From Chitinophagaceae bacterium (GTDB lineage Bacteria; Bacteroidota; Bacteroidia; Chitinophagales; Chitinophagaceae): a stretch of 16,123 bases of DNA. The notes beneath the pieces were generated by a model. It was not told the origin of the DNA. It did not search any database and saw only the letters and a program-made list of their open reading frames with translations. Below are positions 1 to 15,389 of the stretch, in pieces. The stretch is taken from the NCBI GenBank assembly GCA_003456175.1, contig DMPB01000028.1, positions 1 to 16,123 on the forward strand, given 5' to 3'. Numbering within the stretch: the first letter of the stretch is position 1; each line of letters begins with the position of its first letter. The translations under genes and the position numbers were made by a program.

Positions 1-2666
1 TTACACATAACGGTGCTACGAATAGCCGGGTCGGTAATTGCTTCGAACGGAAATGCCATGTACACTACCCGATGGTTGCCTCTAAAGCCTACAGCAGCCC
101 CATCGCCTGTGCCACCACTGTAATTAAGTAATAGTTCGGCACCTGTTACAGCACTGATACGATCTGGAAAATCAACATCAAAAATGCCGGCCGAACCGTT
201 ATCGAAAGTGCCAGACTGATTGGCAAAAAATTGCGATGTTCCAGTGAAGTTATAGGTACCTGCATCATCATCAATATAATTGGCTTTCAAATAATTGTTA
301 TAGAAGTTGAGGTTAGCATTGGCCGATGCTGCTCTACCAATATCCCAACCAAGTTCGGCACCAGAAATTAAAAGGTTGCCACCGGCATCTAAATAAGCAG
401 TTAGTTTAGCAGCCTCGGTAGCATCGAGTGTACGGTCGGCAGTACTTTCCTCGCCTAGTATCCAATCTACTGCTGCATAGCCGTTAAGGCTAATCATATC
501 AGCAATAACTGCTTCGTTTTGTGCACCATCGAACGCGGCACCGCAATTACTTAGCGCTGCTGCATGATCTACCATATAATCGTAGCGATTCATGCGTTCT
601 AAAAACATTCTACGAACATTTCCTAATATGCTACCCTCATTACGCAATACCATCGGCGAAAGTCTGTCGAAGCCATCTACAATTAAATAGCTGGCATTAC
701 TAGTAGGGCTAGCTGGTGTACGTGCAGCTACAACGCTAGTAGTAAATGATTCGCCACCAGCGTTCACGGCCGAAATTTTGAAATAATAAGTGGTATTGGC
801 AGCACCAGTGAAGGTGTAAGTAGTATCATTTACCGTAAGGCCATCGCCAAAACCCTTTCCATTATTACTTATGTATACCCGATAGCTTGTGGCCGGATGA
901 CCAAAAATGCCACCTGTTACAGGCCTGCGCCATGTTAATTGTATTTGATTGTTCCCTGCATTTTTAGCTATAAAATGCGTTGGCTCTTCGGGTAAGTATA
1001 CAATGGGGGTGCCATCTTTATAATTGAAATACTTAACGATGCCCTTATAAATGGCTCTTGCTGCTAGCCTGCGAAATTCTGCATTCTTCAAATCAGTAGC
1101 ATCGGCTGGTGTATCGTGAAAAGCCAACTCAATGAGTGTTCCCGGAATAGAATCGAGATTACGTAATTCTCCAAAGTTGGCTTCTTTAACGCCACGATCG
1201 GTCCAACTTGGGTTGTACCCTGCCCGAATATCGCTAACGATCTGACGATGAATGCTATCGCGAAGTTGTGTACTACCAGGCGATATATTGGGGCGGCCGC
1301 TTCCCAAACCATTATAGCGGTAAGTTTCTGTGCCACGAGCCGTTGCATTCGCAGCATTGGTATGAAACGACACAAACACGCTGTTGCGTACCTCTTCTAC
1401 CCCGCCTTTATTGGCTTCCCATTCGGCATAGAGTGGCCGCATGTTAACATCGCCAACGCAAGTAGGATACCCTTGGTAACGAGCATACATATTGGCTGCT
1501 TCTTCGAAACGGGCTTTGTTACTTCCATTCGGTGATACACTCGGAAAGTTACAATCGGCCTGCTGACCGATGCCGCCGCCAAAACGAACTGCATCGGCTA
1601 TAATAGCTTGCGCATCTTGCGTACTTTGGTTGCTTAATACCACTTTATTATCGCCACCGGCTGCGAAATAAAAACGACCTATATACACCCAAGTACTGCC
1701 GTGTACCTCTTGATTCACTGTATAAGTGGTTGTACCTCCAGCATGATGCACGGTGTATTTAACATCGGTAGGTCTGTTGAGACCGCTTACAAACTGCACA
1801 CTTACCCAATAATAACCACTTACGGTAATCGTAGGCGTGAAAGTAGCTGTGGCAGTAGCGGTAGCACTACTATTGGCTACACGGTATGTACCATTATAAC
1901 CGGGCACTCCACCATCGGTCCAACTACCAGTTTCAGTGTATTGGGGTGCACCGGCATCGTTGTTAACAATGATTTCATTGGTATTTACATCGCGTTCACG
2001 AACACTCCAAACATTCGCACCAGCATTGTACAAGTAGTTCAGTAAATAGTAATTGATGGTTTCAATGGTTCCAAAATCTTCTACCACCTCGTTAGTAGTG
2101 CCACGCTGTGTTGAAAATGCCGAGGCAGAACTATTAGCAACATTCCAACCATGGCCAGGACTCAGCCAAACTGTTTTACCTAATAAACCTCCTGTGAATG
2201 CAGACTGGCTTGGTGTTGGAAATAACCGTGCAGCAACATTGCTGTTAACCGCACCTTTTATATCTGGAAAAGGATCGTTATTCGGCTGTTGCTGGTACCG
2301 CACCTTAGTGGCTACCGGCGTAAAATAATCAAGTGTTTTCCACGTATTGGTGGCAGCATCTTTCGCTAGCAACACAATATTATCGGCACCGGCTTCGTAT
2401 GCCATGTGTGCTAAAGCCTCGTTCAGTTCTTCTACCAAAGCATCGGGTAATTGCCTTACGGTAAATGATTGACGCACATTGAAGTACACTTGTAAAAGAT
2501 TGCCGTTTTGTGCAACACTATCGGGCTGTAATGCTAGTTGCGGATAATGTTCGGCGGCTTTGTTAACAGTGTTGCGAATAGGTTGTAAAAGCGAGTGTTG
2601 CTGTGCTTGTACCATAGATACACCAACAGCAGCCAATGCGGTTAGCAGGCATTGTTTGAAGCGCAT
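1..2666 (-). CDS. Secreted N-acetylmuramoyl-L-alanine amidase-like protein with golvesin-like, Fn3 and C-terminal modules (C-terminus cut by window edge)
   Basis: The frame is open from ATG at 2666 to the left edge (888 codons visible); I checked the phase at several points along its length. Residues 1-22 form a signal peptide ending VQA before QQHS. The amidase part shows SPGHGW with zinc-ligand candidate His172, an acidic NEVVED stretch (Glu193/Glu196), SFHTNA with His435, and LIELAFHD with Glu513, which matches the Amidase_3 pattern of cleaving the lactyl-peptide amide of peptidoglycan. Between the first and second halves of that fold, at about residues 240-367, sits a golvesin/xanthan-lyase-like carbohydrate-binding module (VKYTVHHAGG, then WVYIGRFYF, then DAVRFGGG). 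An Fn3 domain (about 555-650) and an uncharacterised C-terminal module starting SYLIVDGFDRL (about 657) follow. It lies downstream of polA on the same strand, 129 bases away, with its own candidate promoter. Envelope function is inferred; the substrate could be another glycan or peptide. Confidence 0.85.
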   Translation of the reverse strand, partial: MRFKQCLLTALAAVGVSMVQAQQHSLLQPIRNTVNKAAEHYPQLALQPDSVAQNGNLLQVYFNVRQSFTVRQLPDALVEELNEALAHMAYEAGADNIVLLAKDAATNTWKTLDYFTPVATKVRYQQQPNNDPFPDIKGAVNSNVAARLFPTPSQSAFTGGLLGKTVWLSPGHGWNVANSSASAFSTQRGTTNEVVEDFGTIETINYYLLNYLYNAGANVWSVRERDVNTNEIIVNNDAGAPQYTETGSWTDGGVPGYNGTYRVANSSATATATATFTPTITVSGYYWVSVQFVSGLNRPTDVKYTVHHAGGTTTYTVNQEVHGSTWVYIGRFYFAAGGDNKVVLSNQSTQDAQAIIADAVRFGGGIGQQADCNFPSVSPNGSNKARFEEAANMYARYQGYPTCVGDVNMRPLYAEWEANKGGVEEVRNSVFVSFHTNAANATARGTETYRYNGLGSGRPNISPGSTQLRDSIHRQIVSDIRAGYNPSWTDRGVKEANFGELRNLDSIPGTLIELAFHDTPADATDLKNAEFRRLAARAIYKGIVKYFNYKDGTPIVYLPEEPTHFIAKNAGNNQIQLTWRRPVTGGIFGHPATSYRVYISNNGKGFGDGLTVNDTTYTFTGAANTTYYFKISAVNAGGESFTTSVVAARTPASPTSNASYLIVDGFDRLSPMVLRNEGSILGNVRRMFLERMNRYDYMVDHAAALSNCGAAFDGAQNEAVIADMISLNGYAAVDWILGEESTADRTLDATEAAKLTAYLDAGGNLLISGAELGWDIGRAASANANLNFYNNYLKANYIDDDAGTYNFTGTSQFFANQSGTFDNGSAGIFDVDFPDRISAVTGAELLLNYSGGTGDGAAVGFRGNHRVVYMAFPFEAITDPAIRSTVMC
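828..840 (+). repeat. Interspersed repeat ATTTRCCGYAAGG, copy 1
   Basis: ATTTACCGTAAGG inside the amidase gene, opposite to its sense strand (encodes LTVN). Consensus of all 12 copies: (C)ATTTRCCGYAAGG(TA), with the near-palindromic core TTRC-C-GYAA. Confidence 0.8.
2454..2466 (-). repeat. Interspersed repeat, copy 2
   Basis: A perfect ATTTACCGTAAGG on the minus strand, in the amidase gene in the sense direction, encoding FTVR near the protein's N-terminus. Confidence 0.8.
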
Positions 2667-2697
2667 AAGCAGTCGTTATTTTTCGGTTTTTGCACCT

Positions 2698-2730
2698 TGA
2701 AGATAGCTAAAAACCGCTAAATACTGCAAA
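2698..2730 (-). promoter_or_regulatory. Candidate Bacteroidota-type promoter for the amidase
   Basis: Read on the minus strand, TTTG (2730-2727) is followed after 21 bases by TATCTTCA (2705-2698), a four-of-six match to TAnnTTTG. The predicted start would leave a leader of about 25 bases before the ATG at 2666. The match is imperfect, so transcription from polA cannot be excluded. Confidence 0.3.
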
Positions 2731-2780
2731 TACAGCTTTTTTTGTGCAGCTACATGTGCCTAATAGGCTCCCGCTACCTC

Positions 2781-2793
2781 ATTTACCGTAAGG
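2781..2793 (+). repeat. Interspersed repeat, copy 3, at the polA stop codon
   Basis: The extended 16-base form (2780-2795) ends at the base next to the polA stop codon (2796-2798). It is the most notable element in the polA-amidase gap. Confidence 0.85.
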
Positions 2794-2795
2794 TA

Positions 2796-5678
2796 CTAGT
2801 GTGCTTCTAACCAATTATCGCCAATACCTACCTCGGCCTCTACTGGCACACCATGTGGTAGCACCAATGCGGTACGCATATTCTCGAGAATAAGGTTTTT
2901 GAGTGACTCTACTTCATCGCGGTGGGCATCGAACACCAATTCATCGTGTACTTGCAGCAACATTTTGCTACGTAGTTGTGCGGCTTGCATGGCTGCATGA
3001 ATTTTAATCATCGCCAACTTAATCATATCAGCTGCGGTACCTTGAATCGGACTGTTAATTGCGTTGCGTTCGGCGTAGCCCCTAACGGTAAAATTACTGC
3101 TGTTGATATCGCGAAGCCAACGCTTGCGGCCCATTAACGTTTGTACGTAACCATGCTCTCTACAGAAATTGATGGTTTCATCCATATAACGTGTGATGCC
3201 TGAAAACTCACGTTTGTAGTTATCAATAATTTCTTTCGCTTCAGATCTGCTGATGCCTAAGTTATCGGCCAAACCAAATGCACCTTGCCCGTATATGATA
3301 CCAAAATTCACGCTCTTGGCTTTGTATCGTTGTTCTTTGGTAACGGCAGCTTCATCAATGCCATACACTTTAGCAGCTGTAGCGGTGTGAATGTCTTTGC
3401 CGGCAATAAAAGCTTTCACCATATTTTCATCGCCACTAATTGCTGCAACAATGCGTAATTCAATTTGCGAGTAGTCGGCGCTGAGCAATATATAATCGCT
3501 GCTACGTGGTACAAACGCTTTGCGTATTTCGCGGCCCCGTTCGGTACGTATCGGAATATTTTGAAGGTTCGGATTATTACTACTTAACCTACCTGTTACG
3601 GCTACAGCTTGTGCATAATTGGTATGCACCCGGCCTGTTTTGCTGTTCAGCAATTTGGGTAAAGCATCTACATAGGTACTTTTTAGCTTGGTAAGTTGGC
3701 GATAGGCTAAAATATTGGTAACCACATCGTGCCCTTTTGCAGCTAATTTCAACAACACATCTTCACCCGTTTGATATTGACCTGTTTTAGTTTTTTTCGC
3801 AGATGGATCTAACTTCAAATGATCAAACAATACCTCGCCCAGTTGCTTGGGACTTGCTAGGTTAAATTTGAGCCCTGCGGTAGCATATACTTGTTGTTCG
3901 GCTTCGGCAGCTTCTTGCTCTAATTGTACACTATAAGCTTGTAAGAAATCTGTATCTACACGAATGCCTTCATACTCCATATCGGTAAGTACACGTACCA
4001 ATGGATTTTCAACTTCGTAAAACACACGTTCTACTTCACGCTCTTTCAATTGTGGATGTAAGGCATGTTTTAATTGTAAGGTAATATCGGCATCTTCAGC
4101 AGCATAGTCTTTCACTGCCTCAATAGGTGCATCACGCATATTGCCTTGTTCTTTCCCTTTTTTTCCTATGAGGGTTTCAATAGCAATAGGTTCGTAACCG
4201 AGGTATTGTGTACTTAGCCAATCCATACTACGCTTACCTTCTGGCTCAATTACATAATGTGCTAGCATGGTATCGTATAATTTACCCGTAAGGGTGTACC
4301 CATACCATTTTAACACCAATAAATCGTATTTAATATTTTGACCAATCCAAAGAATATCAGGATGAGCAAATAAAGGCGCAAGTAATGCAAGTATGGCTGA
4401 GGTAGCCTCTTTTTCGGGCGGACAAGGTATGTAATAAGCTTCCCTTGCGGTAAATGCAAAACTCATACCCACCAATTCTGCTTCATTCGCATCGATATGG
4501 GTAGTTTCAGTATCGAAACAAATTTCTAGTTGCTGCAATGCTTTGGCAACAAAAGCTTCGATAGCTGCAGGAGTATTGAGCAAATGATACGTATGAGGCA
4601 CATCGTTAATGGTTTTTAAAGCACTTGTTTCGGTAGATGTAGTTGCATCAGTTGATACGCTTACGGCCATTTGCAACAAAGGCGAATCAAAAGCAATGGC
4701 ATGGCCACCAGCTTTTTCTTTTTTGTTACTTGCCGTTGGAGGTGTAGGGCTACCAAATAAATCTATCTGACTACCCGTTGGTGCTTGTTGAAACACATCG
4801 AAATCGTTGCCTAAAATTCGCTTGCCTAATGTTTTAAATTCTAGTTCGGCGAAAATGCTTTTAAGCGCTTCTGTGTTCCATGCTTTTAACTGATAATCTT
4901 CTTCGTGAAATGTTACCGGTACATTGGTGATAATGGTAGCCAGTTTTTTACTCATTAACGCATCTTCTTTACCCTTGCGTACCTTCTCGCCCAAGGCACC
5001 TTTAATGGCATCGGCATTGGCCAATACATTTTCAAGGGTATCATATTCTTTCAGCAGTTTAGCAGCCGTTTTTTCTCCTACGCCTGCAATACCGGGGATA
5101 TTATCTACTGCATCGCCCATTAAACCGAGCATATCAATTACTTGTTCTACACGGGCAATATCCCATTTGGTACAAATTTTTTGTGCATCTAAAATTTCTT
5201 CTTTGTTACCCATGTACGGCGGCTTATAAATGTATACACCTGGGTGTATGAGTAACTGTCCATAATCTTTATCAGGTGTTACCATATACACCTCGTAGCC
5301 TTTATCGGCTGCTTGCCATGCTAGGGTACCAATAACATCATCGGCTTCATAGCCATCGAGTTCTACCACCGGAATATTAAACCCTCTGATAATATCTTTA
5401 ATCATCGGAATACTCACCAATAAATCTTCTGGAGCTTCTTGCCTATTGGCTTTGTAGGCCGCAAAATCAGTATGTCTTTCTGTAGCAGCCTCTGTATCAA
5501 AACACACCGCTAAATGGGTTGGTTTTTCTTTTTGAATGAGATCGTACAAAGTATTGGTGAACCCAAACTGTGCATTGGTGTTCAAACCTTTACTCGTAAT
5601 ACGCGGACTACGAATTAACGCATAATAAGCTCTGTAAATGAGCGCCATTGCATCGAGCAAAAAGAGTTTTTTAGCCAT
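2796..5678 (-). CDS. polA: DNA polymerase I, with intact 5' nuclease, 3'-5' exonuclease and polymerase domains
   Basis: 960 residues, slightly longer than E. coli Pol I. The N-terminal 5' nuclease (about 1-290) has GYEADDVIGTLA, DKDYGQLL and the helix-hairpin-helix stretch DAVDNIPGIAGVGEKTAAKLL. The proofreading domain keeps FDTETT (Asp389, Glu391), NIKYDLL and the YAAED motif, so 3'-5' exonuclease activity is expected, unlike in Taq-type enzymes. The polymerase domain keeps motif A (ADYSQIELR, Asp735), motif B (RYKAKSVNFGIIYGQG) and motif C (QVHDELVF, Asp912). A low-complexity linker between the nuclease and proofreading domains carries QIDLF at 304-308, resembling the sliding-clamp-binding consensus. 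The enzyme acts in Okazaki fragment processing and repair. It is transcribed divergently from the trehalase, and its stop codon directly abuts a copy of the 13-base interspersed repeat. MAKKLFLLDAMALIYRAYYA is a typical start for the family. Confidence 0.98.
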   Translation of the reverse strand: MAKKLFLLDAMALIYRAYYALIRSPRITSKGLNTNAQFGFTNTLYDLIQKEKPTHLAVCFDTEAATERHTDFAAYKANRQEAPEDLLVSIPMIKDIIRGFNIPVVELDGYEADDVIGTLAWQAADKGYEVYMVTPDKDYGQLLIHPGVYIYKPPYMGNKEEILDAQKICTKWDIARVEQVIDMLGLMGDAVDNIPGIAGVGEKTAAKLLKEYDTLENVLANADAIKGALGEKVRKGKEDALMSKKLATIITNVPVTFHEEDYQLKAWNTEALKSIFAELEFKTLGKRILGNDFDVFQQAPTGSQIDLFGSPTPPTASNKKEKAGGHAIAFDSPLLQMAVSVSTDATTSTETSALKTINDVPHTYHLLNTPAAIEAFVAKALQQLEICFDTETTHIDANEAELVGMSFAFTAREAYYIPCPPEKEATSAILALLAPLFAHPDILWIGQNIKYDLLVLKWYGYTLTGKLYDTMLAHYVIEPEGKRSMDWLSTQYLGYEPIAIETLIGKKGKEQGNMRDAPIEAVKDYAAEDADITLQLKHALHPQLKEREVERVFYEVENPLVRVLTDMEYEGIRVDTDFLQAYSVQLEQEAAEAEQQVYATAGLKFNLASPKQLGEVLFDHLKLDPSAKKTKTGQYQTGEDVLLKLAAKGHDVVTNILAYRQLTKLKSTYVDALPKLLNSKTGRVHTNYAQAVAVTGRLSSNNPNLQNIPIRTERGREIRKAFVPRSSDYILLSADYSQIELRIVAAISGDENMVKAFIAGKDIHTATAAKVYGIDEAAVTKEQRYKAKSVNFGIIYGQGAFGLADNLGISRSEAKEIIDNYKREFSGITRYMDETINFCREHGYVQTLMGRKRWLRDINSSNFTVRGYAERNAINSPIQGTAADMIKLAMIKIHAAMQAAQLRSKMLLQVHDELVFDAHRDEVESLKNLILENMRTALVLPHGVPVEAEVGIGDNWLEAH
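4443..4455 (-). repeat. Interspersed repeat, copy 4 (GCAA variant)
   Basis: ATTTACCGCAAGG on the minus strand inside polA, encoding AFTARE in the proofreading domain. A more degenerate copy, with one change in the 12-base core, lies at 3081-3092. Confidence 0.7.
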
Positions 5679-5792
5679 GCAACGAATGTACAGTTTATGC
5701 GGTTGTTGCTACATAAGAAGCGGTGTATTTGACAACTTTCAATGCAATTTTTTGCTTGCAACTCGTACCTTACACATCAAATTTTTACCTAC

Positions 5793-7388
5793 ATGCGTTG
5801 TTGTAACTACCGCACACTATTTTCTGCAGCTGCTATTGTTAGTAGTATGTACCTTACGGTAAATGCTCAACCGGTTAGTACACCCGATAGTATTTATCAG
5901 CGATTATTTACCGATGTACAGTTGAACCGCATTTTTCCAGACAACAAAACCTTTGTGGATATGGTTCCTAAGCGTTCGCCACAAGCAATTGTAGCCGATT
6001 ATGAACGCATTCGCAACACACCTAATATTAAATTTTCTATCAAAGCATTTGTAGAGGAGAATTTTTATTTACCGCAAGGTAATACCAATACTTATACCAC
6101 CCAGCAAGCACCTGTAGCAACACATATTAAACAGCTTTGGCAAGTACTGAAACGCCAAGCCGATGTAGCCACGGCAGGCAGCTCATTACTACCATTACCT
6201 AACCCCTATATTGTACCGGGCGGACGATTTAGGGAAGTGTATTATTGGGATAGTTACTTTACCATGCTTGGATTAGCGGAAAGTGGCGAGTGGACTACCA
6301 TTGAACACATGATTGATAATTTTGCTTATTTAATCAACCAATACGGACATATACCTAACGGCAATCGCAGTTATTATTTAAGTCGTAGCCAACCACCATT
6401 TTTCGCTATGATGGTCGATTTATTAGCTACCCATAAAGGCAAAGCTACTTGGGCATTATACAAAAACGCATTACAAAAAGAATACGATTATTGGAACGAT
6501 AAAAATGGCATTACAAAACATCGGGTAACCATGCCCGATGGCAGCATTTTACAACGCTATTGGGATGCTAACAACACACCACGACAAGAAAGTTATTACG
6601 AAGATTACACCTTGGTATATGGCGAATACGATGGCATGAAAAAACCTGCCATTGCTAATGCAGCGAACACATTCAGACACTTGCGCAGTGGTGCCGAAAG
6701 TGGCTGGGATTTTAGCACACGTTGGTTTGCCGATGGCAAGCAATTAAAAACAATTGAAACAACCAATATTGTACCTGTTGATTTAAACGGATTGTTGTAT
6801 CAACTAGAACTAGCACTTGCCAAAGCGAATGAAGCATCGGGTAACCTTAATCGAAAACGTTACTTTGAGCAACTAGCACTACGGCGCAAAAAAGCAATAC
6901 AGAAGTACTGCTGGAATGCCAAGCAAGGCTATTTTTTCGATTATCATATTTTACGTAAGCGAACCACCAATGCCATTACCGCTGCAGGCATAACACCAGC
7001 ATTTTTTGGCATTGCAACTACACAACAAACAGCACAATGTGCCAAAACCATTGAGCAACAATTATTACAGCCCGGCGGACTTGTTACTACCACCATTGAT
7101 AGCAAACAACAATGGGATGCACCCAACGGTTGGGCACCATTACAATATATGGCTGTTGTTGGCTTGCGAAACAACGGCCAAACAGCACTGGCAAAAACCA
7201 TTGCCGAACGTTGGATTAACTTAAACATAAAAGTATACCAACAAACAGGCAAGCTCATGGAAAAATACAATGTTGTAGATATTACCAAAGAAGCTGGCGG
7301 CGGCGAATATCCTGGTCAGGATGGTTTCGGTTGGACCAACGGCGTATTACTCAAACTATTAGCTATGTATCCCGTTAATACACCATAA
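5793..7388 (+). CDS. treA: Secreted (periplasmic) trehalase, glycoside hydrolase family 37
   Basis: Hydrolyses alpha,alpha-trehalose to two glucose molecules. Both trehalase signatures are present: PGGRFREVYYWDSY (142-155) and QWDAPNGWAP (440-449). Asp306 in ESGWDF and Glu490 in LMEKYN match the positions of the catalytic acid and base in GH37 enzymes; the glycine-rich GGGEYPGQDGFGWTNG follows. An upstream in-frame ATG exists at 5742, but I prefer 5793. It gives a compact signal peptide (MRCCNYRTLF, a hydrophobic stretch, then LTVNA before QPV) and a 531-residue protein of usual family length. Its start is divergent from polA across about 114 bases. One repeat copy lies inside the signal peptide coding region, one within the gene, and one directly after the stop codon. 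No trehalose synthesis or transport genes are nearby, so it probably scavenges external trehalose. Confidence 0.95.
   Translation: MRCCNYRTLFSAAAIVSSMYLTVNAQPVSTPDSIYQRLFTDVQLNRIFPDNKTFVDMVPKRSPQAIVADYERIRNTPNIKFSIKAFVEENFYLPQGNTNTYTTQQAPVATHIKQLWQVLKRQADVATAGSSLLPLPNPYIVPGGRFREVYYWDSYFTMLGLAESGEWTTIEHMIDNFAYLINQYGHIPNGNRSYYLSRSQPPFFAMMVDLLATHKGKATWALYKNALQKEYDYWNDKNGITKHRVTMPDGSILQRYWDANNTPRQESYYEDYTLVYGEYDGMKKPAIANAANTFRHLRSGAESGWDFSTRWFADGKQLKTIETTNIVPVDLNGLLYQLELALAKANEASGNLNRKRYFEQLALRRKKAIQKYCWNAKQGYFFDYHILRKRTTNAITAAGITPAFFGIATTQQTAQCAKTIEQQLLQPGGLVTTTIDSKQQWDAPNGWAPLQYMAVVGLRNNGQTALAKTIAERWINLNIKVYQQTGKLMEKYNVVDITKEAGGGEYPGQDGFGWTNGVLLKLLAMYPVNTP
5852..5864 (-). repeat. Interspersed repeat, copy 5, in the trehalase signal peptide region
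   Basis: The extended form spans 5850-5865 and encodes YLTVNA across the predicted signal peptide cleavage region, opposite in strand to the gene. Confidence 0.8.
6067..6079 (+). repeat. Interspersed repeat, copy 6 (GCAA variant)
   Basis: ATTTACCGCAAGG followed by TA, inside the trehalase gene, here read as YLPQG, a different reading frame from the FTVR and LTVN copies. Confidence 0.65.
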
Positions 7389-7390
7389 TA

Positions 7391-7403
7391 CCTTACGGTA
7401 AAT
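7391..7403 (-). repeat. Interspersed repeat, copy 7, at the trehalase stop codon
   Basis: The extended 16-base form begins at 7389, the base directly after the trehalase stop (7386-7388), in the same orientation relative to the gene as the copy at the polA stop. Confidence 0.85.
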
Positions 7404-7451
7404 GAATCCTGCGAATGGCGGGTTGTTATCCATAATAATGCTACGCATTCA

Positions 7452-7494
7452 AACAAAAGAGATGGGGCGCCGAAGGCGCCCCATCTCTTTTGTT
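7452..7494. terminator. Strong bidirectional rho-independent terminator after the trehalase gene
   Basis: A perfect 20-base inverted repeat (7452-7471 and 7475-7494) surrounds a GAA loop. The stem has a GC-rich tip (GGGGCGCC/GGCGCCCC) and an A-rich left foot paired with a TCTTTTGTT right foot, so a U-rich tail exists on either strand. It separates the trehalase transcript from the ribosomal protein cluster. Confidence 0.92.
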
Positions 7495-7548
7495 ACTAGT
7501 TGGGCATTCTCGAAACAAGCAATAGTACCTGCAGCTAGTAGCAGTAGT

Positions 7549-7561
7549 ATTTGCCGCAAGG
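7549..7561 (+). repeat. Interspersed repeat, copy 8 (G and C variant)
   Basis: ATTTGCCGCAAGG in the non-coding trehalase-rplM gap, about 55 bases past the terminator. Both variable positions differ from the main form, and the flanking base changes so that GCC still pairs with GGC. Confidence 0.65.
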
Positions 7562-7708: not shown

Positions 7709-7712
7709 CACT

Positions 7713-8223: not shown

Positions 8224-8235
8224 AGCCCCTCCCGG

Positions 8236-8252
8236 CCTCCCCGAAGGGGAGG
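8236..8252. repeat. GC-rich hairpin between rplM and rpsI
   Basis: CCTCCCC-GAA-GGGGAGG forms a perfect 7-base-pair stem inside a CCCCTCCCGGCC context. The composition contrasts with the AT-rich surroundings. No T-tract follows and rpsI lies 40 bases downstream, so it probably does not end transcription. It may be a dispersed intergenic repeat or an mRNA processing or stability hairpin; only one copy is in this window. Confidence 0.5.
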
Positions 8253-8292
8253 TGATTGGAGAATTTCATAAACTCAATCACCAAAAAATTAC

Positions 8293-8682
8293 ATGGAAAA
8301 GCAAAAACAAGGTTTAGGTCGCCGTAAGGAAGCCGTAACACGAGTATACCTCGCTAAAGGTACCGGCACCATTACCGTTAACGACAAAGATTACAAGCAA
8401 TATTTTCCCTTGGTGTATCTACAAAATCAGGTAGAAGCTCCATTGAAAACTGCTGAAGTTGCCGACAAGTTTGATGTTAAAATCAACGCTACTGGCGGTG
8501 GTTTAAAAGGTCAGGCCGAGGCAGCGAAGTTGGGTATTGCCCGTGCTTTAATTGAAGTGAATCCAGAGTTTCGTCCTGCTTTAAAAGCTGCTGGTTACCT
8601 CAAGCGTGACCCACGTGGCGTAGAGCGTAAGAAATTTGGTAAGAAAAAGGCCCGCCGCAGCTACCAGTTCAGCAAGCGTTAA
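8293..8682 (+). CDS. rpsI: 30S ribosomal protein S9
   Basis: A 129-residue uS9 protein with the expected start GLGRRKEAVTRVYL, the central GGGLKGQAEAAKLGIARAL and the conserved basic tail KKARRSYQFSKR. In the assembled small subunit this tail reaches the P-site tRNA. The gene is second in the rplM-rpsI-rpsB-tsf cluster, 69 bases after rplM and 96 bases before rpsB. The start codon is preceded by CACCAAAAAATTAC, with no Shine-Dalgarno site. Nothing about the protein is unusual. Confidence 0.98.
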   Translation: MEKQKQGLGRRKEAVTRVYLAKGTGTITVNDKDYKQYFPLVYLQNQVEAPLKTAEVADKFDVKINATGGGLKGQAEAAKLGIARALIEVNPEFRPALKAAGYLKRDPRGVERKKFGKKKARRSYQFSKR

Positions 8683-8697
8683 TATCCTTTTTCGATT

Positions 8698-8727
8698 CCA
8701 TGGTCCAGTATTGTCGATGGTCCATGG
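8698..8727. repeat. Imperfect inverted repeat between rpsI and rpsB
   Basis: CCATGGTCCA (8698-8707) and TGGTCCATGG (8718-8727) pair with one mismatch around a 10-base loop. The same stretch also contains ATGGTCCA as a direct repeat. It lies in the 96-base rpsI-rpsB gap, with a T-run upstream rather than downstream, so I do not call it a terminator. Its function is unknown. Confidence 0.4.
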
Positions 8728-8778
8728 TTACATGAACGATCGACACATCATTATTATCACATTATTACAACATAAACA

Positions 8779-9675
8779 ATGGAAAATAATACTTCACTTC
8801 AACAGCAATTGCTCGAAGCCGGTGTACACTTTGGTCACCTCAAGAAGAAGTGGAATCCTAAAATGTTGCCATACATCTTCGCTGAGAAGAAGGGTATTCA
8901 CATCATCGACCTTAACAAAACAGTAGACGGCTTGCAAGAGGCTGCTGCTGCTATGAAACAAATTGCAAAGAGTGGCAAAAAAATCATGTTTGTTGCCACT
9001 AAAAAGCAAGCTAAAGAAATTGTTAGCGAGTGTGCTAAGCGTGTTAACATGCCTTTCGCTACAGAGCGTTGGTTAGGTGGTATGCTTACCAACTTCAACA
9101 CCGTTCGTAAGAGCGTGAAGAAAATGCAAAGCATCGAAAAAATGTTGAACGATGGTAGCGCCGAAAGCCTTACTAAGAAAGAACGTTTAACATTAAGCCG
9201 CGATAAAGAAAAGATGGAAAAAGTATTGGGTGGTATCGCTCAATTAACACGTCTTCCAGCTGCTTTATTCTTGGTAGATATTGGCCATGAGCATATTGCT
9301 TTAGCCGAAGCAAAGCGTTTAGGTATCACTACATTTGGTATGGTTGATACCAACTGCGATCCTAACAAAGTTGATTACGCTATTCCTGCGAACGACGATG
9401 CTACTAAGAGTATCGCTATCATTACTAACTACATTGTTGCTGCTATTGCTGAAGGCTTAGAAGAGCGCCAAGCTAGCAAAGACGATGAGGTTGAAGAAAG
9501 CGATAACGAAGCAGAACGTCGTGCTGCACGCTTACAAGCAGAAGCTGAAGCCGAAGCTGGTCGTGGTGGCCGTGGTGGCCGTGGCCGCGGTACAGCTGCT
9601 GCAACAGGCGGAGCTCCTAAGCGTCGCGTACCCAATAGCCGTCGCCCAGCAGGTGGTGGTACTGGTGCCCGTTAA
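8779..9675 (+). CDS. rpsB: 30S ribosomal protein S2 with an acidic then RGG-rich C-terminal extension
   Basis: 298 residues. The uS2 fold covers about 1-230: LLEAGVHFGHLKKKWNPKMLPYIF at the start, then ATKKQAKEIV, RWLGGMLTNF and DTNCDPNKVDYAIPANDDA. E. coli S2 has about 241 residues. Here a further stretch of about 65 residues follows, first acidic and Ala/Glu-rich (DDEVEESDNEAERR and AEAEAEA), then glycine/arginine-rich (GRGGRGGRGRG and later PKRRVPNSRRPAGGG). S2 is a late-assembling protein of the small subunit body that helps hold bS1 where that is present; a basic disordered tail could contact rRNA or mRNA, but that is inference. Upstream sequence is A-rich without a Shine-Dalgarno site. 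The gene is followed by a structured 284-base gap and then tsf. Confidence 0.97.
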   Translation: MENNTSLQQQLLEAGVHFGHLKKKWNPKMLPYIFAEKKGIHIIDLNKTVDGLQEAAAAMKQIAKSGKKIMFVATKKQAKEIVSECAKRVNMPFATERWLGGMLTNFNTVRKSVKKMQSIEKMLNDGSAESLTKKERLTLSRDKEKMEKVLGGIAQLTRLPAALFLVDIGHEHIALAEAKRLGITTFGMVDTNCDPNKVDYAIPANDDATKSIAIITNYIVAAIAEGLEERQASKDDEVEESDNEAERRAARLQAEAEAEAGRGGRGGRGRGTAAATGGAPKRRVPNSRRPAGGGTGAR

Positions 9676-9690
9676 TTGAAACGTTATCCA

Positions 9691-9835
9691 TCAACAATAT
9701 TGGGTCAATAATCGCTCCGGTGTATAGCAGGATGGATTGTTGACCCAACTTTTGTACAAGCATTGAGCTTAGGTTGCGTCGCACACTTGTACGCGAGTGC
9801 AAGCATGTACCAACCCCGCCGATACTAGTACCTAA
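9691..9835 (+). other. Structured RNA-like region between rpsB and tsf
   Basis: The 284-base gap (9676-9959) holds several complementary arms. TTGGGTCAA (9700-9708) pairs with TTGACCCAA (9740-9748). TCAACAAT (9691-9698) pairs with ATTGTTGA (9737-9744) as a competing alternative. CTTGTAC-GCGA-GTGCAAG (9786-9803) is a GNRA-capped hairpin with one wobble. TTAGGT (9769-9774) and ACCTAA (9830-9835) enclose that hairpin. No convincing reading frame is present. It could be an rpsB 3' UTR element, an attenuator or a small RNA. I recognise no known family. Confidence 0.4.
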
Positions 9836-9903
9836 AGTTGAAGTGAGTGACACAACGAAGTTGCCATAAGCACCATAGTTGGTTACCAAATAATAACACC
9901 GCA

Positions 9904-9930
9904 GGTGCAAGCGGTAACTAACTTTGCACC
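9904..9930 (+). promoter_or_regulatory. Candidate tsf promoter within an inverted repeat
   Basis: TAACTTTG (9919-9926) is a perfect match to the TAnnTTTG -7 box, 33 bases before the tsf ATG. It overlaps perfect 7-base inverted arms, GGTGCAA (9904-9910) and TTGCACC (9924-9930). GCGGT (9911-9915) can also pair with ACCGC on either side (9898-9902 or 9928-9932), and a palindrome TTGGTTACCAA lies at 9879-9889. There is no clear -33 box at normal spacing. An operator around an internal promoter is a reasonable reading; an attenuator hairpin is the alternative. Confidence 0.45.
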
Positions 9931-9959
9931 GCATTGAATCACAAAAAATACCTAATCAT

Positions 9960-10799
9960 ATGAGTACAGTTGCAATTACCGCTGCTGACATTAATAAGTT
10001 ACGCCAAGCTACTGGCGCCGGTATGATGGATTGCCGTAAAGCTTTAACTGAAACTAACGGCGATTTTGAAGCCGCTATTGATTGGTTACGTAAGCAAGGC
10101 CAAAAGGTTGCTGCAAAGCGTAGCGATCGTGAAGCGAAAGAAGGTGTAGTAGTAGCAAAAACGAGTACCGATAACAAAGTGGGTTATGTAGTTTGTATTA
10201 GCTGCGAAACTGACTTTGTATCTAAAAATGCCGATTTCGTTGCGTTCGCACAATCTATTGCCGATGCTGCTGTTGCCAACGATGCAAAAGATGTTGATGC
10301 TTTAAATGCTGCGGAAATTAATGGTGCTAAAGTGGCCGATTTAATCAATGATAAGGTTGCTGCTATCGGCGAAAAAATTGGTATTGCTAAATACGAACGT
10401 ATTGAAGCTCCATACGTGAGTGCTTACATACATGGTGCTTACCGTTTGGGTGTGTTGGTTGGCTTAACAAGCGAAGCTGCTGATGCAGGTAAAGATGTAG
10501 CAATGCAAATTGCTGCAATGAACCCGGTGGCTGTTGATGCTGCTAGTGTACCAGCCGATGCTGTTGAGCGTGAAAGAGCAGTAATTATTGAAACTATGAA
10601 AGCCGATCCTAAAATGGCCGGCAAGCCAGATGAAATGATTGGCAAAATTGCTGAAGGAAAATTAAATGCCTTCTTCAAAGAACAAACATTAATGGCACAA
10701 CCATTTGTAAAAGATGGTGGCTTAAGTGTTGAAGCTTACTTGCAAAGTGTGAGTAAAGATCTTAAGGTTACAGAATTTCGTCGTGTAGCTTTAGGTTAA
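9960..10799 (+). CDS. tsf: Translation elongation factor Ts
   Basis: 279 residues, the usual length. EF-Ts is the nucleotide exchange factor that regenerates EF-Tu-GTP. The N-terminal UBA-like domain reads ITAADINKLRQATGAGMMDCRKAL, followed by the classic signature CETDFVSKN and the core and coiled regions ending KVTEFRRVALG. An in-frame ATG at 9924 would add MHRIESQKIPNH, but that falls over the inverted repeat and -7-like box. MSTVAITAADINKL at 9960 is the conserved family start, preceded by A-rich sequence. It is last in the cluster and is followed 21 bases later by a terminator. It follows rpsB as in most bacteria, but the 284-base gap and internal promoter-like site suggest partly separate control. 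Confidence 0.97.
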   Translation: MSTVAITAADINKLRQATGAGMMDCRKALTETNGDFEAAIDWLRKQGQKVAAKRSDREAKEGVVVAKTSTDNKVGYVVCISCETDFVSKNADFVAFAQSIADAAVANDAKDVDALNAAEINGAKVADLINDKVAAIGEKIGIAKYERIEAPYVSAYIHGAYRLGVLVGLTSEAADAGKDVAMQIAAMNPVAVDAASVPADAVERERAVIIETMKADPKMAGKPDEMIGKIAEGKLNAFFKEQTLMAQPFVKDGGLSVEAYLQSVSKDLKVTEFRRVALG

Positions 10800-10820
10800 T
10801 AGCTTTTAGCATAAATTCAA

Positions 10821-10850
10821 TAAAACGCCGCCTCAAAGGGCGGCGTTTTA
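10821..10850 (+). terminator. Rho-independent terminator of the tsf transcript
   Basis: TAAAACGCCGCC (10821-10832) and GGCGGCGTTTTA (10839-10850) form a perfect 12-base-pair stem with a six-base loop and a T-run at the 3' foot. It starts 21 bases after the tsf stop codon. The rest of the gap before the next gene (10851-10980) shows nothing further that I can name. Confidence 0.92.
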
Positions 10851-10980
10851 TATTGGTAGATGTTAGATAAGCGCTAATATTTTTAATTGGTGGGGCAACG
10901 TGGATTCTTTATTTTGGCTCTCCCTAAAAGTGTATCTCTTTCCTTAACCGGCAACCCCATAACTGCGCAGTCTATCTATC

Positions 10981-13900
10981 ATGTTACATAGAAAAATACT
11001 TGTATTATTAGCACTTGTGTGCATTAGTATTAGCAGCCTTGCACAAAACTTATCGAACAGAGGCAGAGAGTTTTGGGTGGCTTGGGGGCACAATCAATTA
11101 GGAACTGGAGCGACCTTTAAAATTTATTTGAGTACAACCAATCAAGCTAATGTTGATATCAGTTTTGTTGGTGGTACTAGTATTTACAACAACTATATCC
11201 CTCCAAACTCAGTAGTTGAAGTGAATGTGCCATATAATGGCAGTGCCAGCATGCTTAGCTTTACTGATGGTATTAACGATAACAAAGCCATTAGGATTAC
11301 AGCTGACGAACCCATTGTTGCGTATACCCATATGATTGGGAGTGCAAGTTCTGGTGCAACCATGCTATTGCCTGTAGAAACTTGGGGGCAACGCTACTTT
11401 TCTATGAATAGTGCTCAAGACTGGGGAGCTGGTGCCCGTTCTTGGGTGTATGTTATTGCCAATCAAGATAGTACTTATGTTGAATTAACGCCAACTGTTC
11501 AATCTACTAACACAACGGCTAATACACCATTAACCGTAATGTTGATGCGTGGTCAGATATATAACATGCTTGCCAATAGCCTTTCTGATGACATGAGTGG
11601 AACTCAGGTACGCTCTGTTAATGGTCCTCAAGGGCAGCCTTGTAAGCCAATTGCAGTTTTTTCTGGCACTAGTAGAACTCGCTTGGGTAGTAGTGGTGAT
11701 TTTGCGATGCAACAAATTTTTCCAGCACAAGCATGGGGTACCAGATATTTAAGTGCACCTGCATCTTCTTTAAGCAGTACAGCTACACGTAATCCTACAC
11801 CTTATAGAATATTTGTAAGAGATCCATCAACCGTTGTTAGGGTTAATGGAGCACCGCTTGGTATTGGTGGACTTATTAGAAATACCTATTATGAAGTTGC
11901 TGCCATTTCTACCATCACACAACCTATTACGATTGAAGCGGATAAACCCATTTCAGTAGCACAATATTTTCCATCGCAAGGTAGTACTGGTTGGGTTGGT
12001 AATGGTGACCCGGAAACTATTATATTGAGTCCGATCGAGCAGGCGATTAACTCCGTTGGTTTTATGGCCACTGAAAACGAGTCTATGACAGGTAATTTCG
12101 TACAAGTAATTGCTCGTGTGCCCAATGCTACACTAACAGGTCAGGCTGCTGCGAATAGTATTAATTTACGATTTAGCCAACGTAGAGGAACTAACCCAAT
12201 AGAATTTCAAAATTGGGATGTGGTATATGATCATAATTTAACGGGCTATAAAGTGTTTGTAAAACGCTTTTCACCCAATTTATCTGGAGCCGAAAATAGA
12301 CAAGCTTTCATTACCTCTGATTCGGCTTTTACAGGTATCACTTATGGGCTTGGTAACGTAGAAAGTTATGGTTATAATGTAGGTACCTTGGTGAATAACC
12401 TAGATGCATTAGGTAATATCCAAAATACTGGTGGTAGTAACCAGCAGTTAACCACACGTACATGTAGAGATGTTCCATTTCGTTTTACATTGGCGCTACC
12501 TTATGTACCAACACAAATTCGTTGGTTATTTAGTCAAGTGCCGCGTTTAAGTAGTAACGTCGATTCTATTCAAAATAATCCTATTCCAATTGATTCTTTC
12601 ATTCAGAATAGTCGTAAATACTACAGATTTACCGTAAGGAGAGATTATACTTTCGATACCATTGGAAGCCTCACCATTCCATTGAAGATTGTTGCACCAG
12701 GTATCGATAATTGCCAAAATACAGCCGATGCCTCGTTGCAGGTTGTAATTGATCGTGGCCCATTTGCCAATTTTGTAACTAGCTACACTGGTTGTAAACT
12801 TGATACTGCCTTTTTCAATAGTAATGTAAATGCCAATGGATTTAATATTGAGCGTTACAAATGGTTTTATCCGAATGGTAGTATTGATAGCTTAGGTAAC
12901 ACTAGTTTTTTCAGGTTTGATGCACCTGGTACCTATCCGGTTCGCTTGCGTGCTATCGCCGATAATGGTTGTTATGGCGATACTACAATTAATGTAGTAA
13001 CAGCGCCAAACCCATACGCTGCATTTGCTGTAGCACCAGATAGTATTTGTATAGGTAGCAATTTTACATTTACCGATAGTGCATCTTTTTCGGGTACTGT
13101 TCCAGTATCACGTTTTTGGTGGAGCTATGGCGATGGTAGGGTAGATAGCTTTACAACGCGTGGGCCACGTCAGGTACGTTACGATACAGCGGGCGTATTT
13201 ACCGTAAGGTATGTAAATAGTGCTAGCAGATGTAATAGCGATACAGCCACTAGAACCATTCGTGTTTGGCAAAAGCCAGATGCTTGGTTCGGCTTTACAA
13301 CAGGTTGCTTGCAAGATAGTACCGTTCGTTTTTTTGATAGTACCCGTGTTACCGATGGGCAAACTTTCACCTATGCTTGGAATTTTGGCGACCCCAACCC
13401 AAGCCCTACAAGGCCCAATACAAGTACGGCACAAAACCCTAGTCATATTTATATTGGATTTCAAGTGAACGATGTTCAGTTGATTGTAACCACCAATAAT
13501 GGCTGTAGAGATACCGTAGTTCGCCAGTATCAGGTACAAGGGTTTTCATCGCCTATTACGTTCACAGTAGCGAATGAAAATAGGCTATGTAGTAACCTTG
13601 CGGTAAATGTTACCAATACAAGCAACATCGCTCAAGATAGTATTTATCGTATCGATCAATATTGGGATGTGGCTGCACAGCCAAACGTATTTGTAACTGA
13701 TAATACGCCAACACAGGGCGAGGTGTACACACATACTTATGCAACTTTCACAACGCCAGTTACGCAAAATAAAATCATCAAATGGGTAGTGTATAGCCGA
13801 GGCGGTTGTATCAGCGAAAAATTTGATACCATTACCTTACATGCTATGCCGGTGCTAACGGTTGGGTTTATTCCCGGTCGTTGCGTGAATGGTGGTATTA

Positions 13901-15375
13901 GTGGCATAGATAGTGCCCGTGTAACGAACGGCGTTACTGGTAATGGTTGGTATATTGGTAACGGTATAGATAGTGCGGGTCGTTTTAACCCTGCTACTGC
14001 AGGTGTAGGTGTTACGGCATTCAAGTATTACTTTAATACTAGTGGCGGCTGTATAGATAGTATCAACGCAAGTGTACGAGTGTTTCCGAAACCCAATGCA
14101 CAGTTCACCAGACCTGCTAACCGTTGCTTGGGCGATAGCACGTTGTTAACCAATACGAGCACCATTAGCAGTGGCAACATTGTAGGATGGAATTGGAATT
14201 TCGGTGACAACTCAACACCACAATCATTGGCCAATGGCAATCCATTCTATCACACTTATCGCAATTTCGGAAGCTTTGTAACGCAATTAACCGTTATTAG
14301 CGATAGTGGTTGTATAAGTGATGTGTATCGTGATACCGCCAAAATAGACCCATTGCCTGAACCTAATTTTAGCATTCCTCCATTTATTTGTATGCCTGCG
14401 GGTAAGGCAGCTTTCACCAACTTGAGTACCATTGCTAATGGCACCACCAGCCAGTTAACGTACACTTGGAATTTCGGCGATGGTGGTACAAGCACTGAAA
14501 CAGATCCTACGTATGTGTATAGCAATATTGGCCCATACAATGTGCGTTTAACGGCTCTGAGCGTATTAGGTTGTGTGAAAGATACGGTGCGTGTTTTAAA
14601 TACTTTCTACGAACAACCAAGAGCTGGCTTTACAGTAAATGATAGTATTTTCTGTCAGGGTAAAGAAACCATTTTCACCGATACCAGTACAGCTCCCAAT
14701 AGTACCATTACCGATTGGTTCTGGAGTTTCGGTGATGGTAGTGTAAGTACAGAGCGTAGCCCACGCAAAACATACACGCAGTATGGCCCTTATGTGGTTA
14801 CGCTGGTAACTAAAAACACACAAGGCTGCTTGAGTGATACCGCAACTAAGAATATTCGTGTGAACTTACAGCCACGTGTGAATGCAGGCCCCGATTTAGT
14901 AATCGATGAAGGTCGTTCAGGTATACTTCGTGGTGTTATTAATGATCCTGGTGTTCGTATTGTTTGGACACCAGCTACCTACCTAAGTAGCGATACTGTG
15001 GTTCGGCCTACTGTTACGCCTGTGTTCAATACCGTGTACATCATGTATGGTTATGGCGATGGTAACTGTATGGCTAGCGATACCGTACGTGTAACTGTAC
15101 TTAAACAATTACGCATACCTAACGCATTCAGCCCGAATGGCGATGGTATCAATGATAAATGGGTGATCCCGTATATAGAAGATTATCCGAACCTACGTAT
15201 GCAAGTATTTAACCGCTATGGACAGCCAGTATTTACAAGTAGTGGTTATGCGAAGCCTTGGGATGGTAACGGTCCTGGCAGTCAGCCATTGCCTGCAGGA
15301 ACTTATTACTACATTATAGAACCGAATGGTGGTGGTTACGATAAAGTGAGTGGTTATGTACTCATATTGCGTTAG
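10981..15375 (+). CDS. Secreted giant PKD-domain protein with IgGFc-binding-like N-terminus and gliding/T9SS C-terminal domain
   Basis: 1464 residues. A signal peptide (MLHRKILVLLALVCISISSLAQ) is followed by an IgGFc-binding-like domain at about 24-470 (NRGREFWVAWGHNQ, then ETWGQRYFSM). A series of PKD and Ig-like domains runs from about 605 to 1376, with the motifs WWSYGDG (~714), YAWNFGD (~798), WNWNFGD (~1070), YTWNFGDGG (~1161) and WFWSFGDGS (~1246). The end (1377-1464) is the gliding motility-associated C-terminal domain: IPNAFSPNGDGINDKW, VFNRYGQPVF, WDGNGPG and PAGTYYYII. Such domains typically direct type IX secretion and surface display in Bacteroidota; adhesion or gliding is the family-based inference. 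Three copies of the interspersed repeat lie within the gene and one directly at its stop. It stands alone between the tsf terminator and the convergent DHS-like gene. A weak TTTG (10913-10916) is the only promoter hint. Confidence 0.93.
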   Translation: MLHRKILVLLALVCISISSLAQNLSNRGREFWVAWGHNQLGTGATFKIYLSTTNQANVDISFVGGTSIYNNYIPPNSVVEVNVPYNGSASMLSFTDGINDNKAIRITADEPIVAYTHMIGSASSGATMLLPVETWGQRYFSMNSAQDWGAGARSWVYVIANQDSTYVELTPTVQSTNTTANTPLTVMLMRGQIYNMLANSLSDDMSGTQVRSVNGPQGQPCKPIAVFSGTSRTRLGSSGDFAMQQIFPAQAWGTRYLSAPASSLSSTATRNPTPYRIFVRDPSTVVRVNGAPLGIGGLIRNTYYEVAAISTITQPITIEADKPISVAQYFPSQGSTGWVGNGDPETIILSPIEQAINSVGFMATENESMTGNFVQVIARVPNATLTGQAAANSINLRFSQRRGTNPIEFQNWDVVYDHNLTGYKVFVKRFSPNLSGAENRQAFITSDSAFTGITYGLGNVESYGYNVGTLVNNLDALGNIQNTGGSNQQLTTRTCRDVPFRFTLALPYVPTQIRWLFSQVPRLSSNVDSIQNNPIPIDSFIQNSRKYYRFTVRRDYTFDTIGSLTIPLKIVAPGIDNCQNTADASLQVVIDRGPFANFVTSYTGCKLDTAFFNSNVNANGFNIERYKWFYPNGSIDSLGNTSFFRFDAPGTYPVRLRAIADNGCYGDTTINVVTAPNPYAAFAVAPDSICIGSNFTFTDSASFSGTVPVSRFWWSYGDGRVDSFTTRGPRQVRYDTAGVFTVRYVNSASRCNSDTATRTIRVWQKPDAWFGFTTGCLQDSTVRFFDSTRVTDGQTFTYAWNFGDPNPSPTRPNTSTAQNPSHIYIGFQVNDVQLIVTTNNGCRDTVVRQYQVQGFSSPITFTVANENRLCSNLAVNVTNTSNIAQDSIYRIDQYWDVAAQPNVFVTDNTPTQGEVYTHTYATFTTPVTQNKIIKWVVYSRGGCISEKFDTITLHAMPVLTVGFIPGRCVNGGISGIDSARVTNGVTGNGWYIGNGIDSAGRFNPATAGVGVTAFKYYFNTSGGCIDSINASVRVFPKPNAQFTRPANRCLGDSTLLTNTSTISSGNIVGWNWNFGDNSTPQSLANGNPFYHTYRNFGSFVTQLTVISDSGCISDVYRDTAKIDPLPEPNFSIPPFICMPAGKAAFTNLSTIANGTTSQLTYTWNFGDGGTSTETDPTYVYSNIGPYNVRLTALSVLGCVKDTVRVLNTFYEQPRAGFTVNDSIFCQGKETIFTDTSTAPNSTITDWFWSFGDGSVSTERSPRKTYTQYGPYVVTLVTKNTQGCLSDTATKNIRVNLQPRVNAGPDLVIDEGRSGILRGVINDPGVRIVWTPATYLSSDTVVRPTVTPVFNTVYIMYGYGDGNCMASDTVRVTVLKQLRIPNAFSPNGDGINDKWVIPYIEDYPNLRMQVFNRYGQPVFTSSGYAKPWDGNGPGSQPLPAGTYYYIIEPNGGGYDKVSGYVLILR
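12627..12639 (+). repeat. Interspersed repeat, copy 9
   Basis: A perfect ATTTACCGTAAGG inside the PKD protein gene, encoding FTVRR. It is the first copy after a 5-kb stretch with none that covers the ribosomal cluster. Confidence 0.75.
13197..13209 (+). repeat. Interspersed repeat, copy 10
   Basis: ATTTACCGTAAGG followed by TA inside the PKD protein gene, encoding VFTVRY at the end of a PKD domain. Confidence 0.75.
13596..13608 (-). repeat. Interspersed repeat, copy 11 (GCAA variant)
   Basis: The reverse-strand form, preceded by C so that it extends to CATTTACCGCAAGG, inside the PKD protein gene, encoding NLAVNV. Confidence 0.7.
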
Positions 15376-15376
15376 C

Positions 15377-15389
15377 ATTTGCCGTAAGG
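15377..15389 (+). repeat. Interspersed repeat, copy 12, between convergent stops
   Basis: CATTTGCCGTAAGG starts at 15376, the base directly after the PKD gene stop (15373-15375), and fills most of the 25-base gap to the convergent DHS-like gene. No ordinary terminator is present there; GCC-GTAA-GGC could form a short GNRA-capped hairpin. Confidence 0.8.

Follow-up and report, generated by a model that had tools for sequence, protein, structure and literature searches.

In this work we have examined a short DNA element, TTT-R-CC-[GYAA]-GG-Y (R is position 4 and Y position 13), which occurs twelve times in a stretch of 16,123 nucleotides from a Chitinophagaceae bacterium (contig DMPB01000028.1; the whole of this stretch is called the window below) and which is in large excess throughout the genome that the window comes from. 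We think it probable, judging from sequence data, that the element is a marker of self DNA of the same kind as the DNA uptake sequence (DUS) and the uptake signal sequence (USS), and that it has been spread by biased transformation or recombination. The genome (G000; 3.12 Mb, or 3,122,328 bases, in 213 contigs, 81% complete) contains 1,879 copies of the word TTTRCCGYAAGG, 948 on the forward and 931 on the reverse strand, and no copy of the reversed word on either (0 + 0). In a sample of 61 stretches of this genome, 698 kb in all with the window among them, we counted 451 copies where an order-3 Markov model built on that sample predicts 0.64, so the window is not the chance cluster that the preliminary description of this DNA had allowed for. 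The density in the sample is 0.68 per kb. The logo of the element in its own genome is CATTTACCGTAAGGTA, and outside open reading frames (ORFs) A4 and T8 reach 90% each (250 kb sample). The excess drops steeply with the first mismatch: exact words outnumber one-mismatch words by 451 to 53 in the 698 kb, 22 of the 53 mismatches being at position 8, and the excess over base composition at 0, 1, 2, 3 and 4 mismatches is 1766, 5.2, 0.94, 0.42 and 0.32. For the reversed word the corresponding values at 1–4 mismatches are 0.39, 0.52, 0.35 and 0.18, and a shuffled word is negative throughout. Since the reversed control is also in excess, part of the excess beyond one mismatch is due to composition. 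The ladder has about the same shape as that of the DUS of Neisseria gonorrhoeae, for which an excerpt of PMC1939737 gives 392, 4.8, 0.65, 0.34 and 0.19 at 0–4 mismatches.

The element can also be described as a small hairpin whose paired bases covary. In the own genome G4 is accompanied by C13 in 62 of 76 copies and A4 by T13 in 246 of 374 (Fisher 5e-12 for the first 166 copies). For a second family of the order, Saprospiraceae, we sampled five genomes (G325, G145, G397, G295 and G052; 519 kb) for the degenerate form TTTNSCGNAAGS. Positions 5 and 12 are complementary in 272 of 275 of these words, and positions 4 and 13 form Watson–Crick pairs in 29/39, 34/76, 31/66, 41/48 and 35/43 of them in the five genomes, where 18.2, 20.9, 17.9, 33.7 and 19.6 are expected from the marginals. 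T4·G13 wobble pairs are common in G325, G145 and G295 (10, 11 and 8), and G397 has none. In the loop, positions 7, 9 and 10 are sharply G, A and A, and the 5′ flank of paired cores is TTT in 272 of 504 cases, the next being ATT with 40 (the flank tables omit sites with N or too close to a contig end). A control sample of 391 kb, taken from the congener G001 and 14 other Chitinophagaceae, contained 5 words of the broad form in total. Intact and broken stems were also counted in 34 whole genomes, the broken class being CC..GC (the other class, GC..GG, was counted in the samples only). The ratio of CC..GG to CC..GC was 2029:23 in the own genome, 1389:19 in G295, 1204:6 in G325, 1162:20 in G145, 1091:26 in G397, 467:11 in G052, 219:12 in G359, 143:8 in G182, 88:4 in G251, 85:2 in G337 and 42:4 in G407. 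It was weaker in G282 (200:35), G283 (193:40), G232 (193:37), G222 (156:44), G209 (132:34), G199 (129:41), G210 (111:22), G260 (109:49), G188 (97:64) and G391 (68:22), and it lay between 0.4 and 1.3 in 12 motif-poor genomes (G001, G005, G015, G032, G035, G065, G100, G110, G124, G130, G134 and G160). The signal of G203, again Saprospiraceae, is weak yet clean, with 29 paired and 0 broken CC-class words, and its dialect is perhaps young or decaying. We infer that the degenerate Saprospiraceae form folds, as DNA, into a mini-hairpin that has a GNAA loop and is preceded by TTT on its 5′ side. Its closing pair and loop fit c(GNNA)g, a class of unusually stable DNA tetraloops. In the ORFs of the five Saprospiraceae samples (n = 240) the hairpin strand is sense in 102 cases and antisense in 138, and since the hairpin thus occurs on both gene strands, the fold matters in DNA and not in mRNA. 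It would be read on a single strand, because a dimer binding the duplex should neither forbid mixed half-sites nor require an asymmetric loop and flank.

Copies in the own genome are moreover spaced according to strand. Counting all pairs up to 1 kb apart, we found 53 on the same strand and 149 on opposite strands, where about 154 would be expected for each kind, and none of 2000 runs in which orientations were permuted within the ORF and non-ORF classes gave a same-strand number as low. The deficit is strong at 100–600 bp (21 pairs against 46.8 expected) and weak at 600–1000 bp (27 against 36.6; 31 of 2000 runs as low). It seems that, once a strand has a copy, a second one nearby on that strand is superfluous, whereas a nearby copy on the opposite strand is not; the element is therefore apparently read strand by strand, which fits the reading of single strands or a directional function. 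Copies are also scarce in DNA of low GC content, our proxy for recent acquisition: 3-kb segments with GC below 0.36 hold 7 sites in 12 segments (0.197 per kb), compared with 380 in 189 elsewhere (0.707 per kb; p 8e-5; segments with fewer than 2,000 called bases omitted), although some copy-free stretches have ordinary GC. The longest copy-free stretch in the sample (L009 1-14683) is an island of GC 0.29 with a phage-type integrase, and the second-longest (L133 9898-18702, GC 0.34) is an O-antigen/Wzt locus. The former also bears a histidine kinase/LytTR pair and a zinc-ribbon protein.

Could the element be a Chi-like signal, read on one unwound strand by a nuclease-helicase of the AddAB/RecBCD type, which it would switch from degradation to repair? 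Chi sites are strand-specific and frequent in self DNA, and the strand-specific spacing with its range of about 1 kb and the scarcity in low-GC islands fit a directional signal; directionality would explain the same-strand avoidance, and foreign DNA would be without the element. However, Chi sites are usually skewed along the replichore and their words are linear, whereas our element is structured and forms no orientation domains along the contigs, to which this comparison is limited: neighbours more than 100 bp apart are not alike in strand, with a same/opposite count of 49/88 in the own genome and 15/14, 28/28, 29/27, 14/22 and 15/22 in the five Saprospiraceae. Covariation of a stem around a loop would be unexpected of such a signal, and the steep drop from exact to one-mismatch words is typical of drive and less so of weak selection on each site. 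We consider a Chi-like function rather unlikely.

The distribution of the element among relatives was followed in two samples of the order, of 58 and 395 genomes besides the own. Among the 58, the highest count of TTTRCCGYAAGG was 65 (G052, of another family), and G001, the only congener, had 5 copies. Among the 395, the top counts were 212 in G325, 159 in G145, 147 in G397 and 112 in G295, followed by G052, and all five belong to one other family. We took this family to be Saprospiraceae because PolA of G145 is identical to that of a metagenome-assembled genome (MAG) named Saprospiraceae bacterium, and the own family to be Chitinophagaceae because PolA of the window is closest, among named proteins, to those of Filimonas, Foetidibacter and Sediminibacterium (73–76%). 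As both PolA and ComEC of the own genome are closest to those of own-family genomes, the motif signal does not come from a misplaced genome. The degenerate form is present in several genera of Saprospiraceae, and its ratio to the reversed control is 2101:29 in the own genome, 2773:61 in G145 and 2673:58 in G295. The density of the element is 0.5–0.8 per kb in four of the five Saprospiraceae samples and 0.22 in G052. In a sample of the phylum (247 genomes, the own included) no genome outside the order had more than 185 TTTNSCGNAAGS words or more than four times the reversed control, and no copy or comparable word turned up in k-mer surveys covering 20 kb from each of 14 other Chitinophagaceae and 110 kb from G001. 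Two genomes of a further family (f12), G160 and G134, show a slight excess of TTTRCCGYAAGG (38 and 22 copies) without a pairing preference. Further repeated words are conspicuous in G325 (L063-L064, 23 kb), for example AGCCCGTCG and CCTTCGGCGTTC. A scan of contigs for close inverted pairs, which possibly did not include the own record, gave one match, a locus with three copies in 8 kb in a Gammaproteobacteria MAG (JAHEKJ010000020.1). Three TTTGCCGTAAGG lie there within about 120 bp (L048 3468-3587), two of them as an inverted pair; we judged this locus to be unrelated. Viral contigs scanned for a 16-mer yielded 11 contigs with one site each in the DNA examined.

This distribution bears on a second alternative, in which a protein that organises the chromosome or acts in replication or repair binds the element by gripping the mini-hairpin in extruded or single-stranded form, for example at a single-strand initiation or restart site, and ordinary selection maintains the element. 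Both the density in the own genome (0.68 per kb) and the covariation of the hairpin would suit such a protein. Nevertheless, the congener and the other sampled Chitinophagaceae are at background level, so a conserved housekeeping function is not indicated, and without drive it would be hard to sustain such weak selection at some 1,900 sites, many of them coding. We regard this alternative as unlikely. It is very unlikely that the element is a methylation-linked iterated sequence, kept by an orphan methyltransferase and mismatch repair in the manner of cyanobacterial HIP1, which is likewise a very frequent short word, genome-wide and in coding and non-coding DNA. The preliminary description had likened the element both to uptake sequences and to HIP1; the first likeness, in density and distribution, has gained support, while the second has weakened, as HIP1 is a true duplex palindrome, tied to methyltransferases according to part of PMC4390886, and the complementarity of our element spans a four-base loop across which the pairs covary.

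How copies arise could be followed in one gene. PolA was found in 24 of 24 genomes and 19 loci were aligned (G232, G251, G124, G130 and G182 were omitted owing to split matches, and the locus of G001 is a partial gene). The PolA element of the own genome, read as FTAR, lies at an ungapped, variable column and was therefore formed by substitution and not by insertion. In G145 the element lies two codons off the own site and in a different register; G145 and G325 have one site in common and differ in the others. At orthologous positions of these 19 genomes, then, copies in this one gene come and go by substitution. Repetitive extragenic palindromes (REPs) are short hairpins with a conserved 5′ flank and are extragenic insertions, an anatomy resembled by our element, which could accordingly be taken for a REP-like or miniature insertion spread by a Y1 transposase (IS200-like/RAYT) that recognises hairpins with a 5′ tetranucleotide. 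But the PolA copy replaces codons without a gap, most copies lie in ORFs, and a Y1_Tnp match, found in 27 of 36 genomes including many motif-poor ones, was absent from the motif-rich G000 (81% complete), G052, G295 and G182, which makes this origin extremely improbable.

ORFs, which were set by a greedy longest-ORF rule and not by a gene finder, make up 89% of the 698-kb sample and contain 267 of the 451 copies, 168 antisense to the gene and 99 sense; the other 184 lie outside ORFs, where the density is 5–6 times higher. Pairs no more than 100 bp apart are −/+ in 23 cases, +/− in 10 and on the same strand in 5. The opposite-strand pairs thus number 33. Intergenic DNA holds 26 of them, and 16 of these 26 have an ORF 3′ end at a distance of 100 bp or less. 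A structure acting in RNA, either a terminator or an mRNA hairpin with a GNRA loop, might be suspected from the GNRA-type loop and from the position of these pairs, but it is hardly credible as the main role when antisense copies exceed sense copies in ORFs (168/267 in the own genome, 138/240 in Saprospiraceae) and T-runs are rare near the pairs (five or six T within 20 bases at 2 of 21 −/+ pairs no more than 60 bp apart). Inverted pairs may act secondarily as terminators. For Neisseriaceae and Pasteurellaceae, TerminatorNet (PMC13020248, in part) reports terminators that contain uptake motifs.

We return to the element as a marker of self DNA. A DNA-handling machine, most likely the uptake or transformation apparatus, would prefer strands with 5′-CATTT-R-CC-GYAA-GG-Y-A; biased uptake or recombination would copy alleles bearing the element into the population at a higher rate than those lacking it, and mutations of single bases toward the word would gradually become fixed where protein and RNA constraints allow. 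Recognition would be of a folded single strand in which position 4 pairs with 13, 5 with 12 and 6 with 11, around a GNAA loop, while the 5′ TTT is left unpaired. Saprospiraceae would have kept the fold (TTTNSCGNAAGS) and in our species recognition would have narrowed to nearly one sequence. More tentatively, we suggest a single-strand, fold-reading system of uptake or self-recognition, in which up to a few thousand GNAA mini-hairpins per genome would mark each self strand separately, present in Saprospiraceae and in one species of Chitinophagaceae, whose narrower dialect may have come from them and in which same-strand copies tend to be spaced by about 1 kb or more.

Several of our observations speak against the reading of the element as a marker of self DNA. 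The core hairpin is weak (-0.3 kcal/mol for the 12-mer and -1.7 kcal/mol for the 15-mer). Pair 5-12 hardly varies in the own genome, and positions 4 and 13 are Watson–Crick paired there in only 336 of 486 copies, with 241 expected. The same-strand avoidance was not seen in the Saprospiraceae samples, whose pooled correlogram leaves out the separately tabulated G052, nor has the Saprospiraceae form an intergenic preference (32 of 272 outside ORFs), and three of the five copy-free stretches longer than 6 kb in our own-genome sample have ordinary GC. The machinery is a further difficulty. ComEC, the inner-membrane channel expected of a system of the DUS/USS kind, is encoded in 26 of 26 genomes, whether the motif is present or not (in the own genome G000:C187, PF03772, E 5e-59), and the own copy is closest to those of motif-free Chitinophagaceae (41% to G011, 40% to G001) compared with 27–31% to motif-rich Saprospiraceae; ComEC therefore does not explain the distribution of the motif. 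We found no type IV pilus ATPase of the PilB/PilT kind in the 26 genomes, of which the own is 81% complete, ComP-like pilins and secretins not having been sought. PF00437, the family of pilus and secretion ATPases, gave weak matches in 24 of the 26; five were just above the cut-off, one in the own genome, and the four of these proteins that we examined, the own one included, were of helicase or ClpB type. A Neisseria-like pilus receptor would thus be an unlikely reader.

We had also considered whether ComEC moved together with the motif from Saprospiraceae. This is unsupported, the own ComEC being nearest to those of G011 and G001, although three other Chitinophagaceae ComEC proteins score no better against it than do some from Saprospiraceae. 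Within Bacteroidota, Riemerella columbina favours its own DNA in transformation, and a k-mer count in that species yielded only A/T-rich words (both from the portion of PMC7965970 consulted).

The known systems agree with our element in some respects and differ in others. With the neisserial DUS it shares about 10^3 copies of a 10–12-mer on both strands, inverted intergenic pairs, a steep mismatch ladder of almost the same shape and, as far as an extract of PMC3630211 shows, dialects between lineages. The phylum is another one, the word is unrelated and no type IV pilus ATPase was found here; moreover, the DUS has a fixed sequence, whereas the Saprospiraceae form varies at positions 4, 5, 12 and 13 with pairing kept, our species being nearly fixed. 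The strand-specific spacing is a feature of the own genome. A single USS is, to our knowledge, not a hairpin. The USS of Pasteurellaceae resembles our element in density, in its presence in genes and gaps and in one orientation being favoured in ORFs (PMC2346458, in part); the word is unrelated, and uptake has been demonstrated for the USS while our element is known from sequence alone. In the portions of the literature consulted, uptake sequences are described from two proteobacterial families, Neisseriaceae and Pasteurellaceae, and in openly licensed literature, with broader matches covered only in part, we found neither an uptake-type motif described for Bacteroidota nor any account of recognition by the fold. 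If the fold-reading system that we suggest is real, Bacteroidota would here have, as far as the literature was searched, their first uptake-sequence system; it would also be the first to be recognised through secondary structure and would work without type IV pili. A further, independent case in this phylum, which varies in strength across many genera and is plentiful in one species and at background level in the congener of that species, would make it possible to study how such motifs originate and spread and how their dialects drift. It would also point to a new receptor in Bacteroidota, where little is known of the machinery of DNA uptake, and from the covariation of the hairpin one would predict that DNA is sorted by cells in single-stranded form.

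The copies in the window are given below with the coordinates of the 12-mer, together with a one-mismatch form that is excluded from the element count.

829..840, plus strand: element TTTACCGTAAGG, within the minus-strand ORF 3-2666
2454..2465, minus strand: element TTTACCGTAAGG, within ORF 3-2666, read FTVR
2782..2793, plus strand: element TTTACCGTAAGG (CATTTACCGTAAGGTA), intergenic, directly beyond the polA 3′ end
3081..3092, minus strand: one-mismatch form TTTACCGTTAGG, in polA, not counted
4443..4454, minus strand: element TTTACCGCAAGG, in polA, read FTAR, at the ungapped, variable column of the PolA alignment
5852..5863, minus strand: element TTTACCGTAAGG, in the trehalase-family ORF 5742-7388, read LTVN
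6068..6079, plus strand: element TTTACCGCAAGG, in the trehalase-family ORF 5742-7388, read LPQG
7391..7402, minus strand: element TTTACCGTAAGG, intergenic, 2 bases beyond ORF 5742-7388, on the strand opposite to the copy at 7550
7550..7561, plus strand: element TTTGCCGCAAGGC, intergenic, G4 with C13
12628..12639, plus strand: element TTTACCGTAAGG, in ORF 10981-15375, read FTVR
13198..13209, plus strand: element TTTACCGTAAGG, in ORF 10981-15375, read FTVR
13596..13607, minus strand: element TTTACCGCAAGG, in ORF 10981-15375, read NLAVN
15378..15389, plus strand: element TTTGCCGTAAGGC, intergenic, 2 bases beyond ORF 10981-15375, G4 with C13

All twelve copies were found at the places and on the strands given in the preliminary description, seven plus and five minus. 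Seven have the identical core TTTACCGTAAGG and the other five vary at R4, Y8 or both, as it had said. Its minus-strand starts agree with ours and its plus-strand starts are one base low, owing to a leading A that precedes the element in 12 of 12 copies. What it called a 13-base near-palindrome is better read as the hairpin TTT-R-CC-[GYAA]-GG-Y, with its centre 2.5 bases further 3′. Its estimate that chance could not account for the copies holds: the window has 13 matches with at most one mismatch, where 200 dinucleotide shuffles gave a mean of 0.41 and a maximum of 3. Copies do occur in genes and in gaps, eight within ORFs and four outside, and the proposal that the constraint acts on DNA and not on protein is supported by the placement of copies in the 698-kb sample, by the genome-wide excess on both strands and by the mismatch ladder. 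The covariation of the hairpin, the degenerate form of Saprospiraceae, the spacing by strand and the scarcity in low-GC islands lay beyond what that description could show.

Between 7550 and 12628 the window is free of copies for 5 kb. This region encodes the ribosomal proteins L13, S9 and S2 as well as EF-Ts, and ORF 10981-15375 begins in it. The element may be excluded there by strong constraint on the proteins, and constraint would therefore also create gaps. Beyond the last copy, the ORF at 15401-16105 matches deoxyhypusine synthase (PF01916), which is best known from eukaryotes and archaea.

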